A stretch of DNA of 64,000 nt from Gammaproteobacteria bacterium (GTDB lineage Bacteria; Pseudomonadota; Gammaproteobacteria; SZUA-229). Positions within the stretch are counted from its first letter, which is position 1, and each line of letters starts with the position of its first letter. Below the pieces are notes generated by a model. That model saw nothing but the letters and a program-made list of their open reading frames with translations. It was not told the origin of the DNA and made no database searches. Shown here one piece after another: positions 1-4,343 of the stretch. Where the stretch lies: contig JABDRN010000049.1 of the NCBI GenBank assembly GCA_013041745.1, forward strand, positions 1-64,000, written 5' to 3'. The translations under genes were made by a program, and so were the position numbers.

Positions 1-803
1 TCTTCGACACCGCGTCCAGGCGCCCAGTCTTTGATGAATTCTTTAGATTCATCTTTTGGTGCGATATTGATGCTATCGAAACCACATTCCTGCAGGATGG
101 CTTCGAGTTCTGTGATCTGTGATGCACCCGCCATACAGCCTGAATACAGGGCCAGGTCATTCCTGATCTCGTCGGGGAGTTCTGTGCTGGCGACCACATC
201 AGAAATAGCAAGACGACCGCCGGGCTTAAGGACACGGAAAGCTTCACTGAATACCTGCTTTTTGTCCGGTGACAGGTTGATGACGCAGTTTGATATGATG
301 ACGTCGATCGCGTCATTTGCTACCGGCATATGTTCGATCTCGCCCAGCCTGAACTCGACATGGTTATATCTTCCCTTATCAGCATTATCACGTGCTTTTG
401 ATATCATCGTCGGCGTCATATCGATACCGATGACCTGCCCGGATTCGCCCGTCTCTGCGGCCGCGAGAAAACAGTCAAAGCCACCACCGCTACCCAGATC
501 CAGTATGGTTTCACCTGTCCTTATACTGGCTATCGCACGCGGGTTGCCGCATCCAAGCCCCATATCGGCACCTAGCGGTACTGTCTCAAGATCATCTTCG
601 CTGTAGCCAAGGCGGGTAGAGACCAGGGTGTTGATAGCGGCATCATCGGAAACACCGCAGCAGCTTGAAGCGGTGCCGCAGCAATCACCTTCATTGCTGG
701 CTTCTGCGACCTGGGAATAGCTCTGCCGAACGTTCTGGCGGATTTCGTCTGCCTGCTTTTGACTTGATGCCTGGTCTGCAGATTGATCTATGGGTTGACT
801 CAT
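1..803 (-). CDS. arsM: Arsenite S-adenosylmethionine methyltransferase (3' end outside window)
   Basis: Methylates trivalent arsenic using S-adenosylmethionine in the cytoplasm; in many bacteria this is the first step to methylated arsenicals or arsenosugars. The first 267 residues are visible. A Cys-rich N-terminus (DCCGTASSCCG, about residues 38-48) is followed by the SAM-binding motif ILDLGSGGGFDC and by cysteines in SNCVINL and YSGCMAGA, which match the conserved arsenic-binding cysteines of ArsM. The ATG at 803 overlaps the arsR stop codon in an ATGA junction, so the two genes are co-transcribed and translationally coupled. The C-terminal part lies beyond base 1. Confidence 0.93.
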   Translation of the reverse strand, partial: MSQPIDQSADQASSQKQADEIRQNVRQSYSQVAEASNEGDCCGTASSCCGVSDDAAINTLVSTRLGYSEDDLETVPLGADMGLGCGNPRAIASIRTGETILDLGSGGGFDCFLAAAETGESGQVIGIDMTPTMISKARDNADKGRYNHVEFRLGEIEHMPVANDAIDVIISNCVINLSPDKKQVFSEAFRVLKPGGRLAISDVVASTELPDEIRNDLALYSGCMAGASQITELEAILQECGFDSINIAPKDESKEFIKDWAPGRGVE

Positions 804-1138
804 AACTGTGCTCCAACTAATTGACTGGAAAAAATATTCTCTAATTGCTTCATGACGTCTGTATTGACCGAGCAATACACCTGTTTACCATCGCGCTGCA
901 TATGTATTAATCCGGCACGATGAAGTTCTTTCAGGTGGTGTGATAGTGTCGAGGCGGCTATGTCTAGCTGAGAATCGAGATCACCGACACAGCAACTGAA
1001 TACTTCGTCACTGGCGCAGCTTGCTCCTGGCGTGCAGCAGCTGGTCAGTATATTGAATATTTTCAGCCGGTGGCTGTTTGCCAGTGCTTTGAATATATCG
1101 ACCAGTTGCTCCGAGTCTATAGTTTTATACTTCGACAT
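800..1138 (-). CDS. arsR: ArsR-family metalloregulatory repressor
   Basis: A 112-aa winged-helix repressor that probably releases its operator when As(III) binds cysteines. The helix-turn-helix lies around AASTLSHHLKELHRAGLI (residues about 61-78), and the wing around MQRDGKQVYCSVN. It carries an unusual cysteine set: SCC near residue 33, a further Cys at 41, and SCCVGDL near 48-54, the last at the position of the ELCVCDL sensor motif of classical ArsR. It is the first gene of an arsR-arsM operon with a 4-bp overlap. A sigma70-like promoter ends only 7 bp before the ATG, so the message may be nearly leaderless. Confidence 0.92.
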   Translation of the reverse strand: MSKYKTIDSEQLVDIFKALANSHRLKIFNILTSCCTPGASCASDEVFSCCVGDLDSQLDIAASTLSHHLKELHRAGLIHMQRDGKQVYCSVNTDVMKQLENIFSSQLVGAQL

Positions 1139-1270: not shown

Positions 1271-1486
1271 ATGGCTCAACTAACCGAAGAAGAAAGACAC
1301 AAGCTGGAAGAGCGTTTGTATGAGTTAAGACAGGAGCACCGTGACCTGGACGATGTGATAAATCGCTTATTGCTGACGCCTGATGTCGAAGAGTTGCAGC
1401 TGAAACGCTTCAAAAAGCGTAAGCTTTTGATAAAAGATACCATTACCCGGCTGGAAGATGCTCTGATTCCAGATATTCTCGCTTGA
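1271..1486 (+). CDS. YdcH-family (DUF465) small coiled-coil protein
   Basis: A 71-aa highly charged, helical protein that starts MAQLTEEERHKLEERLYELR and contains a KRFKKRKLLIKDTI segment, matching the short YdcH/DUF465 family. The molecular function of that family is not established. The open frame extends upstream into the arsR region, but the ATG at 1271 gives the family-typical length and N-terminus. It is a single gene, divergent from arsR-arsM, and converges on the glycosyltransferase gene at 1577. No membrane or signal segment is present. Confidence 0.8.
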   Translation: MAQLTEEERHKLEERLYELRQEHRDLDDVINRLLLTPDVEELQLKRFKKRKLLIKDTITRLEDALIPDILA

Positions 1487-1576: not shown

Positions 1577-2257
1577 CTATCTGATCTCAGAAAAAAAGGG
1601 GTGGTCATTTGCCACGGGCAGTTTTAATTCATGCCTGGTCTGTATCGCTGCGACTCGGTACAGGCTGCGCCAGATACCCATTTTGATAAACTTGCGCGGA
1701 TCGGTTCTGGCATATGAATCTAGTATTACCGGCGTGGTTTCTTTTACCAGCTTTTCACAAAAGTAGATATCTTCCATTATTTTGACCTCTGGAAAGCCAC
1801 CCAGGCGGTCGAATAGCTTACGTTTTATGAACATGGCCTGGTCTCCATAGATGATCTTCGTCTTCAGGCAGCGGCGATTATCCAGAAAGGAGATGAACTT
1901 CAGGCGCCAGTCTTCATCACCGAAAGAGTGCTTGAAGCCGCCAGCCTGATATTGTTCATGGCGCATCATTTCTTTGATAGTGTCCAGCGCATTGGCAGGT
2001 AGCAGGGTGTCGGCATGCAGAAAAAGTAATATGTCACCGTTGGCGATTTTTGCGCCCGCATTGAGTTGCGCTGCACGACCTTTCTCGCTGCTTATGAAGG
2101 TGATGCCAGGGTATCGTTTACAGATATTTTCAGTGTCGTCAGTGCTGCCGCCGTCGACGACTATCACCTCTTCACCAGCGGCTTGCTCGAAAACAGTGGC
2201 GAGTGTTTCTGGCAGCGCTTTCTCTTCATTGAGCGTGGGTATTATGACTGAGAGCAT
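1577..2257 (-). CDS. GT2 glycosyltransferase, TIGR04283-like (arsenosugar type)
   Basis: A 226-aa family 2 glycosyltransferase beginning MLSVIIPTLNEEKALPETL. It shows the nucleotide-sugar site VVDGGSTDDT, the metal-binding region LFLHADTLLP, an acceptor-site GDQAMFIKR and a downstream IMEDIYFCEKL segment. This short GT2 type with FLHADT matches the TIGR04283 group found with arsM in predicted arsenosugar pathways. The start at 2257 is chosen because the family N-terminus begins there; further upstream codons are non-homologous sequence inside the ferritin-like gene. It overlaps that gene by 32 bp, so coupling is likely. Assignment to arsenic metabolism rests on family and proximity to arsM, not on direct evidence. 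Confidence 0.82.
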   Translation of the reverse strand: MLSVIIPTLNEEKALPETLATVFEQAAGEEVIVVDGGSTDDTENICKRYPGITFISSEKGRAAQLNAGAKIANGDILLFLHADTLLPANALDTIKEMMRHEQYQAGGFKHSFGDEDWRLKFISFLDNRRCLKTKIIYGDQAMFIKRKLFDRLGGFPEVKIMEDIYFCEKLVKETTPVILDSYARTDPRKFIKMGIWRSLYRVAAIQTRHELKLPVANDHPFFSEIR

Positions 2258-2870
2258 GGCTATAGATCTGGTCAGGCAGGTTATTTCTGAAATCAGCGAT
2301 ATATTGATCACAGTCTTCATCGAAGAATTCAAACAGGTTCTGCATCGATATCAGCATATCATCGATGACAGCGAGATAGGTCTCTGGCTGGATCGAAATT
2401 ATCGAGGATCGACTTTGCCTGAGATAATCGAGGCCGAACTCATGGTGCGCGTCTTCCTGCGCAAGGATGGCGCGACGTAATTTTTGTAGACCTACTTCAC
2501 GTTGCTTCATGCCGAACTCCAGCCGGGATAGTGCTATTTCCCCCATACCCTCGAGTACGACCTGTAGACCGATAACAGATGAAAGCAGATCATGCTTTGT
2601 ATTGGCCTCATCGAGTAATGCGCCATATAACTCGGTATGCTTTTTTGCCGGCGTATTGACCCCTTTGGGTGCCAGGAATAATATCCCGGACTGGAATGTC
2701 ATGGCATGAAATTTTTCCTGCCGAGATTGCCTTATCAGAAACCGTTTCATCTGCTTGTCATCGATAAGTTTTGCCTGCCTGGCTGAGCAGCGCTGTGCCA
2801 TCTGCTCGCAGCATAGTAAAAATTTTAGATAACGTGCGATATGCTTTTTTTCATCAGCCCCGATGTTCAT
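2226..2870 (-). CDS. Ferritin-like four-helix diiron protein, function unknown
   Basis: A 214-aa protein, almost entirely helical. It contains RQEKFHA (ExxH) near residue 50, EGMGEIALSRLE near 105 and AQEDAHHEFG (ExxH) near 137, a spacing like the carboxylate/histidine ligands of ferritin-like diiron proteins. No signal peptide is seen. It lies between the DUF547 gene (stop 1 bp away) and the glycosyltransferase gene (32-bp overlap), so it is the middle gene of a tight operon. The ATG at 2870 fits the operon spacing; another ATG at 2906 would overlap DUF547 by 35 bp. A role as oxygenase or oxidase in arsenosugar formation is only a guess. Confidence 0.75.
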   Translation of the reverse strand: MNIGADEKKHIARYLKFLLCCEQMAQRCSARQAKLIDDKQMKRFLIRQSRQEKFHAMTFQSGILFLAPKGVNTPAKKHTELYGALLDEANTKHDLLSSVIGLQVVLEGMGEIALSRLEFGMKQREVGLQKLRRAILAQEDAHHEFGLDYLRQSRSSIISIQPETYLAVIDDMLISMQNLFEFFDEDCDQYIADFRNNLPDQIYSHALSHNTHAQ

Positions 2871-2871
2871 A

Positions 2872-3663
2872 TCATTCGTCTGCGGTAACTGTGGGTGGGA
2901 TACCATTTAATGACCAGTCATATTCCATGTATTCGATCTCGTATTCGTTATTGGCCAGGGCAGTGGATACCTGTTGATCATTGACATATAGAGCGAGATA
3001 GTTTTGTACCGTAGCGGAATGTTTGACGAAATCATCTTCGAACCAGTCAAATATTTTGGAGATGTAAGCGATTTTAGCCTGATGGTCGAATCGGTTGCGA
3101 GAGCTGTCATTGATAAACATGATGGCAGCATCTTCCAGCTGTTGTTCCAGTGTGTCTTCCTGGTATACAGTACCGCTTAACTTGGGGCAGGAGGCTGATG
3201 CGCAATTCAGCGCGAAGTGTATGCGTGGCTCTCCAAGCGGTATTATCACATCATGCTCCAGATCGTATAGATTGGTTGTTATACCATTGACGGTGTATTC
3301 AGCATTATAGAAATAGCCGATCTTGCCAAAGAACGATTCTGGTGAGCGACCATCGAGTATTCCTTTTATAGCTAATGCATTATAGGCATTGATCCAGTAA
3401 CTTAGTTCTTCGTTGCTGTTTTGAAACCGCACTGGTTTTTGTAGGTCTGATATGTAACTGTGATAGCTGCTGTCCGCGCTTATACCGGGATAGTTTACAT
3501 CGCCGTCATCGACATATGCTGTGAGTACATCCTGAAACAGATCATGTGACAACGGTTCGATTGCCTGCTCCGCATAGGCAGCGGTGACGGATAACAGTAA
3601 AAGCATATAGAGAGCTTGTAGGTATTTATTCACTATAAGATGGCTGCCAGTTTTAATAATCAA
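2872..3663 (-). CDS. DUF547 domain secreted protein
   Basis: A 263-aa protein with an N-terminal hydrophobic segment (LQALYMLLLLSVTAAYA, cleavage near residue 31) indicating export. The DUF547 core is recognisable from LSYWINAYNALAI, the cysteine motif IHFALNCASASCPKL, and the C-terminal YDWSLN. Biochemical function is unknown; DUF547 genes recur next to arsM/arsS and TIGR04283 glycosyltransferases. It is the first gene of the DUF547 / ferritin-like / glycosyltransferase operon and is divergent from the Nudix gene at 3780, with 116 bp between them that should carry both promoters. Confidence 0.85.
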   Translation of the reverse strand: MIIKTGSHLIVNKYLQALYMLLLLSVTAAYAEQAIEPLSHDLFQDVLTAYVDDGDVNYPGISADSSYHSYISDLQKPVRFQNSNEELSYWINAYNALAIKGILDGRSPESFFGKIGYFYNAEYTVNGITTNLYDLEHDVIIPLGEPRIHFALNCASASCPKLSGTVYQEDTLEQQLEDAAIMFINDSSRNRFDHQAKIAYISKIFDWFEDDFVKHSATVQNYLALYVNDQQVSTALANNEYEIEYMEYDWSLNGIPPTVTADE

Positions 3664-3779
3664 TCATTAGAGAATGTGTATTTGATATACTGCCGTCAGA
3701 GCATTATATATCTGAAATCTGCGATATAGACGATGCAGTTATCAAATGGTTCAATAGAATTAAATAAACGGTATTATTT

Positions 3780-4343
3780 ATGAATTTCTGCTCCGCTTGC
3801 GGTGAAAAAGTAAGTTTTCTGATCCCAGAGGGTGATAACCGGCATCGTTTTGTCTGCACCAGCTGTCATACCATCCATTATGAGAACCCCAAGATCGTCA
3901 CCGGTTGTATACCGGAGTGGCAGGATAAAATATTGTTATGTAAGCGCGCGATCGAACCCAGGTATGGTCTATGGACGCTGCCTGCAGGGTTTATGGAGAA
4001 CAGTGAAACTATCATGCAGGGTGCAGCCAGGGAGACTGCTGAAGAAGCGAATGCCGTGGTGGACAACATGCAGCTATTTTGTGTGTTTAGCATCTCACAC
4101 ATAAACCAGGTCTATACCATGTATCGTGGTGAACTGGTCGGAGGGCACGCCAGTCCCGGTGCTGAGAGTCTCGATGTCGCCCTGTTGTCAGAAGACGAGA
4201 TACCCTGGAAGAAGATCGCGTTTCAAGTCATAAGCGAAACGCTAAGGCTCTATTATAAAGATAAATCATCGGGAAGATTTGTCACGCATTACGGTGATAT
4301 AGTCAGACGTGAAGATGGCTCATTCGAAGTGCACTATTTTTGA
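3780..4343 (+). CDS. Nudix hydrolase with N-terminal zinc ribbon
   Basis: A 187-aa protein with two CxxC pairs (CSAC at 4-7, CTSC at 26-29) forming a zinc ribbon like that of NADH pyrophosphatases. A Nudix box follows: G at GFMENSE, then RETAEEANA, with Asn where the consensus has Gly. It probably hydrolyses a nucleoside diphosphate linked to another moiety (ADP-ribose, NADH or similar); the substrate cannot be read from sequence. It is transcribed alone and converges on the S9 peptidase gene with a 12-bp gap. Confidence 0.9.
   Translation: MNFCSACGEKVSFLIPEGDNRHRFVCTSCHTIHYENPKIVTGCIPEWQDKILLCKRAIEPRYGLWTLPAGFMENSETIMQGAARETAEEANAVVDNMQLFCVFSISHINQVYTMYRGELVGGHASPGAESLDVALLSEDEIPWKKIAFQVISETLRLYYKDKSSGRFVTHYGDIVRREDGSFEVHYF

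Follow-up and report, generated by a model that had tools for sequence, protein, structure and literature searches.

A ferritin-like diiron protein (FLP) and a GT2 glycosyltransferase matching TIGR04283 (GT-B) form a real, conserved two-enzyme pair, usually accompanied by a DUF547 protein. The three genes were identified close to arsR and arsM in the window, that is, the whole stretch of 64,000 nucleotides that was analysed. The preferred reading, to which a probability of roughly 0.4 is assigned, is that FLP is an O2-dependent diiron enzyme acting with its coupled GT-B on one small molecule, most likely an organoarsenical derived from ArsM and ArsS, the pair representing a tailoring branch next to the usual arsenosugar route. 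The relevant features are:

1..803, minus strand: arsM, arsenite methyltransferase, truncated by the contig start (NF008823)
800..1138, minus strand: arsR, Cys-rich ArsR/SmtB regulator (NF033788); context, separate unit
1274..1486, plus strand: DUF465 small protein, between the trio and arsR; context
1577..2257, minus strand: GT-B, GT2 glycosyltransferase (TIGR04283), assigned by model score, FLP neighbourhood and tree
2226..2870, minus strand: FLP, ferritin-like diiron protein of 214 aa, start ATG at 2870, assigned by ligand alignment
2872..3663, minus strand: DUF547 protein (PF04784; Pfam, above cut-off)
3664..3779, no strand: intergenic region between the trio and the divergent NUDIX gene, upstream of both
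3780-4343, plus strand: NUDIX gene, divergent from the trio

Reading of the open reading frames in the window places a single base pair between the stop codon of the DUF547 gene and the FLP ATG at 2870; with the alternative in-frame start at ATG 2906, the two genes would overlap. The FLP stop codon ends at 2226 and the ATG of GT-B lies at 2257, yielding an overlap of 32 bp, and a longer GT frame begins with a TTG start at 2332. The arsR product scored 71.4 bits against NF033788 (cut-off 55) and the arsM product 353.5 bits against NF008823 (cut-off 263). These two genes overlap by 4 bp, with arsM running from 803 to the left edge, and lie 0.4 kb beyond the trio on the same strand. The first-pass annotation had described three coupled genes with this spacing and overlap near arsR-arsM, and both coordinates and families agree. 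The DUF465 gene, on the plus strand, separates the trio from arsRM, which indicates distinct units rather than one simple operon. No motif common to the stretch upstream of the trio (3664-3779) and that upstream of arsR was found that was better than shuffles, and a promoter and terminator scan of the trio upstream stretch remained near shuffle level.

FLP was detected at E<=1e-20 in 10 of 369 genomes of the class, where weaker matches were mostly long frames and were taken as R2. It was present in two of 54 genomes of the order, the window's own genome included, and in one of 349 genomes of the phylum, again its own. A scan of genome contigs yielded two relatives only, giving a total of 13 genomes from the class, order and phylum sets and the two contig-scan loci. 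No relatives were found in viral contigs and no matches in plasmids. GT-B adjoins FLP in all 12 testable loci of the 13, which bears out the proposal that the two belong together; the remaining locus, G062, is untestable for GT-B since its contig ends inside FLP. FLP immediately precedes the GT gene in 10 loci resolved to the base, with gaps of -32, -4 (five loci), +1, +2, +9 and +9, the +1 value belonging to G199 and being taken from the displayed stretch. This adjacency, together with the gaps, argues that the arrangement is more than chance. Literature searches, in which coverage of subscription journals was thin, returned no paper joining arsenosugar with DUF547 or ferritin-like proteins, none on TIGR04283 and none joining ferritin-like proteins with arsenic, glycosyltransferase and diiron; the pair is thus undescribed in the papers searched.

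Several loci depart from or extend this layout. L035 (5447-6870) has FLP spread over two reading frames followed by a GT-B fragment cut by the contig end, which reflects either a disrupted gene or faulty assembly. G272 (L044:5832-7975) has FLP divergent from the GT gene and from a gene for a DUF3047 protein, the latter in the place of DUF547. The trio is followed in identical order by genes for a radical SAM/SPASM protein, a small protein that looks exported and a sugar dehydrogenase of the PQQ type in both G166 (L039:4065-8953) and L034 (2849-7775), where the downstream genes of L034 were named by likeness and the small protein of G166 gave a weak polyketide_cyc match. Three f138 FLP loci are preceded by a gene that, judged by eye, resembles a gamma-glutamyltransferase.

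The DUF547 protein of the window matched PF04784 with 89.1 bits (cut-off 27), and H149, C154 and C159 were invariant in an alignment of eight rows. From its hydrophobic N-terminus, judged by eye, the protein is probably exported and would act outside the cytoplasm. DUF547 adjoins FLP in eight of 13 loci and was not found beside it in the other five (G386, G190, G298, G272 and L035), so it appears dispensable to the FLP/GT-B pair. The association of the DUF547 family with arsenosugar genes, put forward in the first-pass annotation, was not supported: DUF547 adjoins ArsS in only one of 27 ArsS loci scanned (L098-L124, about 1.5 kb on each side, drawn from the 30 best ArsS matches, the other three of which are from FLP genomes). 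That single locus, G103 (L098:613-3729), has DUF547 right before ArsS, GT-A (the ArsS-linked TIGR04283 glycosyltransferase) and a TIGR04282-like gene, and is without FLP.

The six diiron ligands of FLP, E22, E52-x-x-H55, E107 and E139-x-x-H142, are all present and were invariant in 11 of 11 aligned FLPs, as anticipated for the diiron-type protein of the first-pass annotation. The alignments of both FLP and GT omit L045 (the partial FLP of G062) and L035 (the broken frame), so that counts out of 11 refer to the 13 loci minus these two. FLP exceeded the cut-off of no curated model. Its top Pfam match was the R2 subunit of ribonucleotide reductase (E 0.0035; 17.2 bits against a cut-off of 33.6), while the Pfam model for aldehyde-deformylating oxygenase (ADO, PF11266) gave no match to the window protein and 18.7 bits, below the cut-off of 28, to the FLP of G272. 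Searched against the PDB, a profile of the 11 FLPs matched R2 (6y2n) at E 2e-6 and ADO (5uwz) at E 1.5e-5; the ligand motifs coincided in both alignments, and the one with ADO covered nearly the full length.

FLP shares its ligand pattern with R2 (NrdB/NrdF), its best profile match, but was rejected as an R2 protein: it has about half the length, falls below the Pfam cut-off and does not conserve the radical tyrosine. The fourth residue after the His of the first ExxH, which we take to be the position of that tyrosine, is Phe in nine of the 11 proteins and Tyr in two. Cyanobacterial ADO is of like size (about 210-230 aa) and its E/ExxH/E/ExxH ligands align with those of FLP over nearly the full length; however, the similarity is weak (profile E 1e-5), Pfam does not detect it in the window protein and the neighbouring gene of FLP encodes a glycosyltransferase. 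FLP may be described as a putative diiron-type protein weakly resembling R2 and ADO. The AlphaFold model, built from two sequences, was poor (pLDDT 48), for which reason the evidence for a four-helix-bundle fold is supportive only. Its longest good structural match was ADO (TMq 0.64, E 0.11), ferritins, Dps and CopM matched at E 0.08 and above, and every match had E>0.05.

The glycosyltransferase of the trio scored 225.6 bits against TIGR04283 (cut-off 182) and resembles GT-A in exceeding the cut-off of this NCBIfam model, in belonging to the GT2 family and in length. The partners of GT-A, however, are ArsS and TIGR04282, whereas GT-B is paired with FLP and falls in a separate clade. When a model of FLP-linked GTs was searched against the 369 class genomes, the best nine matches (>=244 bits) were exactly the nine FLP-adjacent genes and the next scored 217.5 bits; since the FLP-linked GTs are in the model and favour themselves, the tree is the better test. 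In the tree, 10 of 11 FLP-linked GTs, the window copy included, formed one clade (99/98) apart from 29 GT-A sequences (99/96), while copies A and B of G272 were long branches without an assignable position. No FLP was found in 21 GT-A loci (L134-L154), of which 12 had ArsS within about 1.5 kb. By sequence the trio GT therefore lies outside the ArsS-linked branch, in a clade of its own. Its candidacy as the arsS-linked enzyme was rejected, both on this separate placement and on identity, which was 41% to the ArsS-linked copy of its own genome against 52% to its counterpart in the G010 trio. All 11 FLP genomes searched have a second TIGR04283 match besides GT-B, a count that includes G062, whose GT-B is off its contig. 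The term 'arsenosugar glycosyltransferase' is here a family label and no evidence of that step. In passages of PMC13077682, 'arsenosugar biosynthesis glycosyltransferase' serves purely as annotation. Caution is warranted with this name, which falls also on a separate subfamily with different partners.

The first-pass annotation had proposed looking for arsS left of base 1. A position of arsS just outside the window was rejected: base 1 is the start of contig C132, so that arsM is cut and the left side unreadable, and the only arsS over the cut-off in the genome lies inside contig C128. The gene order there is flavoprotein, arsS, TIGR04283 and a TIGR04282-like gene, the last of these named by eye. 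Since one TIGR04283 gene belongs to the arsS operon itself, the trio GT is the second in the genome. The arsM gene beside the trio was the only one found in the assembly at E<=1e-25. G010, of the same genus, has arsM and the trio on different contigs, and no arsM was found at the same threshold in G199, G272, G748 or G749.

A physical link to arsenic genes was observed in G210, where DUF547, FLP, GT-B, PiT, ArsS and ArsM lie in this order on one strand. This cluster, the only one of 13 FLP loci with ArsS in the same gene cluster, resembles the known ArsS-ArsM-GT-TIGR04282 arsenosugar cluster; by contrast, FLP was found in none of the 27 ArsS loci scanned and DUF547 is rare there. The ArsM of G210 (L040:1987-3105) matched best the arsinothricin ArsM model, with 355.9 bits against a cut-off of 500, and was also below the arsenosugar ArsM cut-off. 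In G062 (L045:1-6000), FLP-DUF547 occupies the slot that holds the other ArsS of its sister G210 (L091), flanked by four orthologous genes of 72-86% identity. ArsS was not found in G062 and, as the contig ends inside FLP, may sit in the gap.

Neither ArsS nor ArsM was found in the stretch read at 11 of the 13 FLP loci, at least four of these stretches being shortened by contig ends; at the level of the locus the family thus occurs mainly without these genes, a pattern that the first-pass annotation had named as one that would refute its proposal. At the level of the genome it does not hold for ArsS, which exceeded the cut-off in 12 of 13 FLP genomes. ArsS is nevertheless common, occurring in 185 of the 369 class genomes, and is also carried by FLP-less members of the same families. 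Its co-occurrence with FLP in nine of 10 class genomes (P about 0.01, uncorrected for kinship) is therefore weak and confounded by kinship. The arsenosugar link originally proposed was retained in part, through the G210 operon, the G062 slot and the frequency of ArsS in these genomes, but not as regards the GT, which lies apart from the arsS-linked TIGR04283 enzymes.

Under the preferred reading, FLP would be a soluble diiron enzyme of the R2/ADO kind, an oxygenase or oxidase that depends on O2, lacking the R2 radical tyrosine and translationally coupled to GT-B. Its diiron site argues for O2-dependent oxidation. The two enzymes would act successively on one small molecule, GT-B moving a sugar and FLP oxidising the acceptor or the product, with DUF547 having a presumed periplasmic role. 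The substrate would most likely be an organoarsenical from ArsM and ArsS, and the pair a tailoring branch alongside the ordinary arsenosugar route, in which FLP may oxidise a pathway intermediate. An arsenic role of the pair is plausible, and the odds of an arsenic-bearing substrate are put at roughly even.

The same weight is given to a real FLP/GT-B pair whose substrate contains no arsenic, for instance an envelope glycan or a lipid-linked sugar, on which DUF547 would also act in the periplasm; TIGR04283 would then catch GT-B only as a sister branch. This would be consistent with the separation of GT-B from GT-A, with the second TIGR04283 match in every FLP genome searched and with the absence of arsenic genes from most FLP loci, which instead carry the gamma-glutamyltransferase-like gene (f138) or the radical SAM/SPASM, polyketide_cyc-like and PQQ-type sugar dehydrogenase genes (G166 and L034). 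It accounts less readily for the G210 cluster with ArsS and ArsM, the FLP-DUF547 genes in the ArsS slot of G062 and the presence of ArsS in nearly all FLP genomes.

A coin-toss probability is attached to the nearness of the trio to arsR-arsM being fortuitous, a view compatible with the other explanations whatever the trio does. The intervening plus-strand DUF465 gene, the location of arsM elsewhere in G010 and the lack of an upstream motif in common with arsR are in keeping with chance, whereas the position of the assembly's only detected arsM beside the trio and the ArsM gene in the FLP cluster of G210 speak against it. FLP might alternatively be a non-catalytic partner, iron/O2-responsive or metal-handling, that stabilises or regulates GT-B. 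A small helical protein tightly coupled to a GT would suit such a role, as would the weak model matches to ferritins, Dps and CopM; but the invariance of all six oxygenase-type ligands, the longest structural match to ADO and the profile matches to R2 and ADO make this improbable.

To our knowledge, most of the enzymes that convert the ArsS product to finished arsenosugars and arsenolipids have yet to be assigned, and the link between a diiron enzyme and a single clade of a GT family named for the pathway provides a small, testable gene set. That FLP is a new diiron oxygenase family oxidising an ArsS-derived organoarsenical with a dedicated GT clade is considered rather unlikely; if true, some gammaproteobacteria would possess a second, oxygen-dependent arsenosugar branch with a product yet to be named. 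A lipoamide-dehydrogenase/MerA-like flavoprotein is encoded right before ArsS in three FLP genomes (L046:8185-9612, L090:4372-5787 and L094:849-2264).
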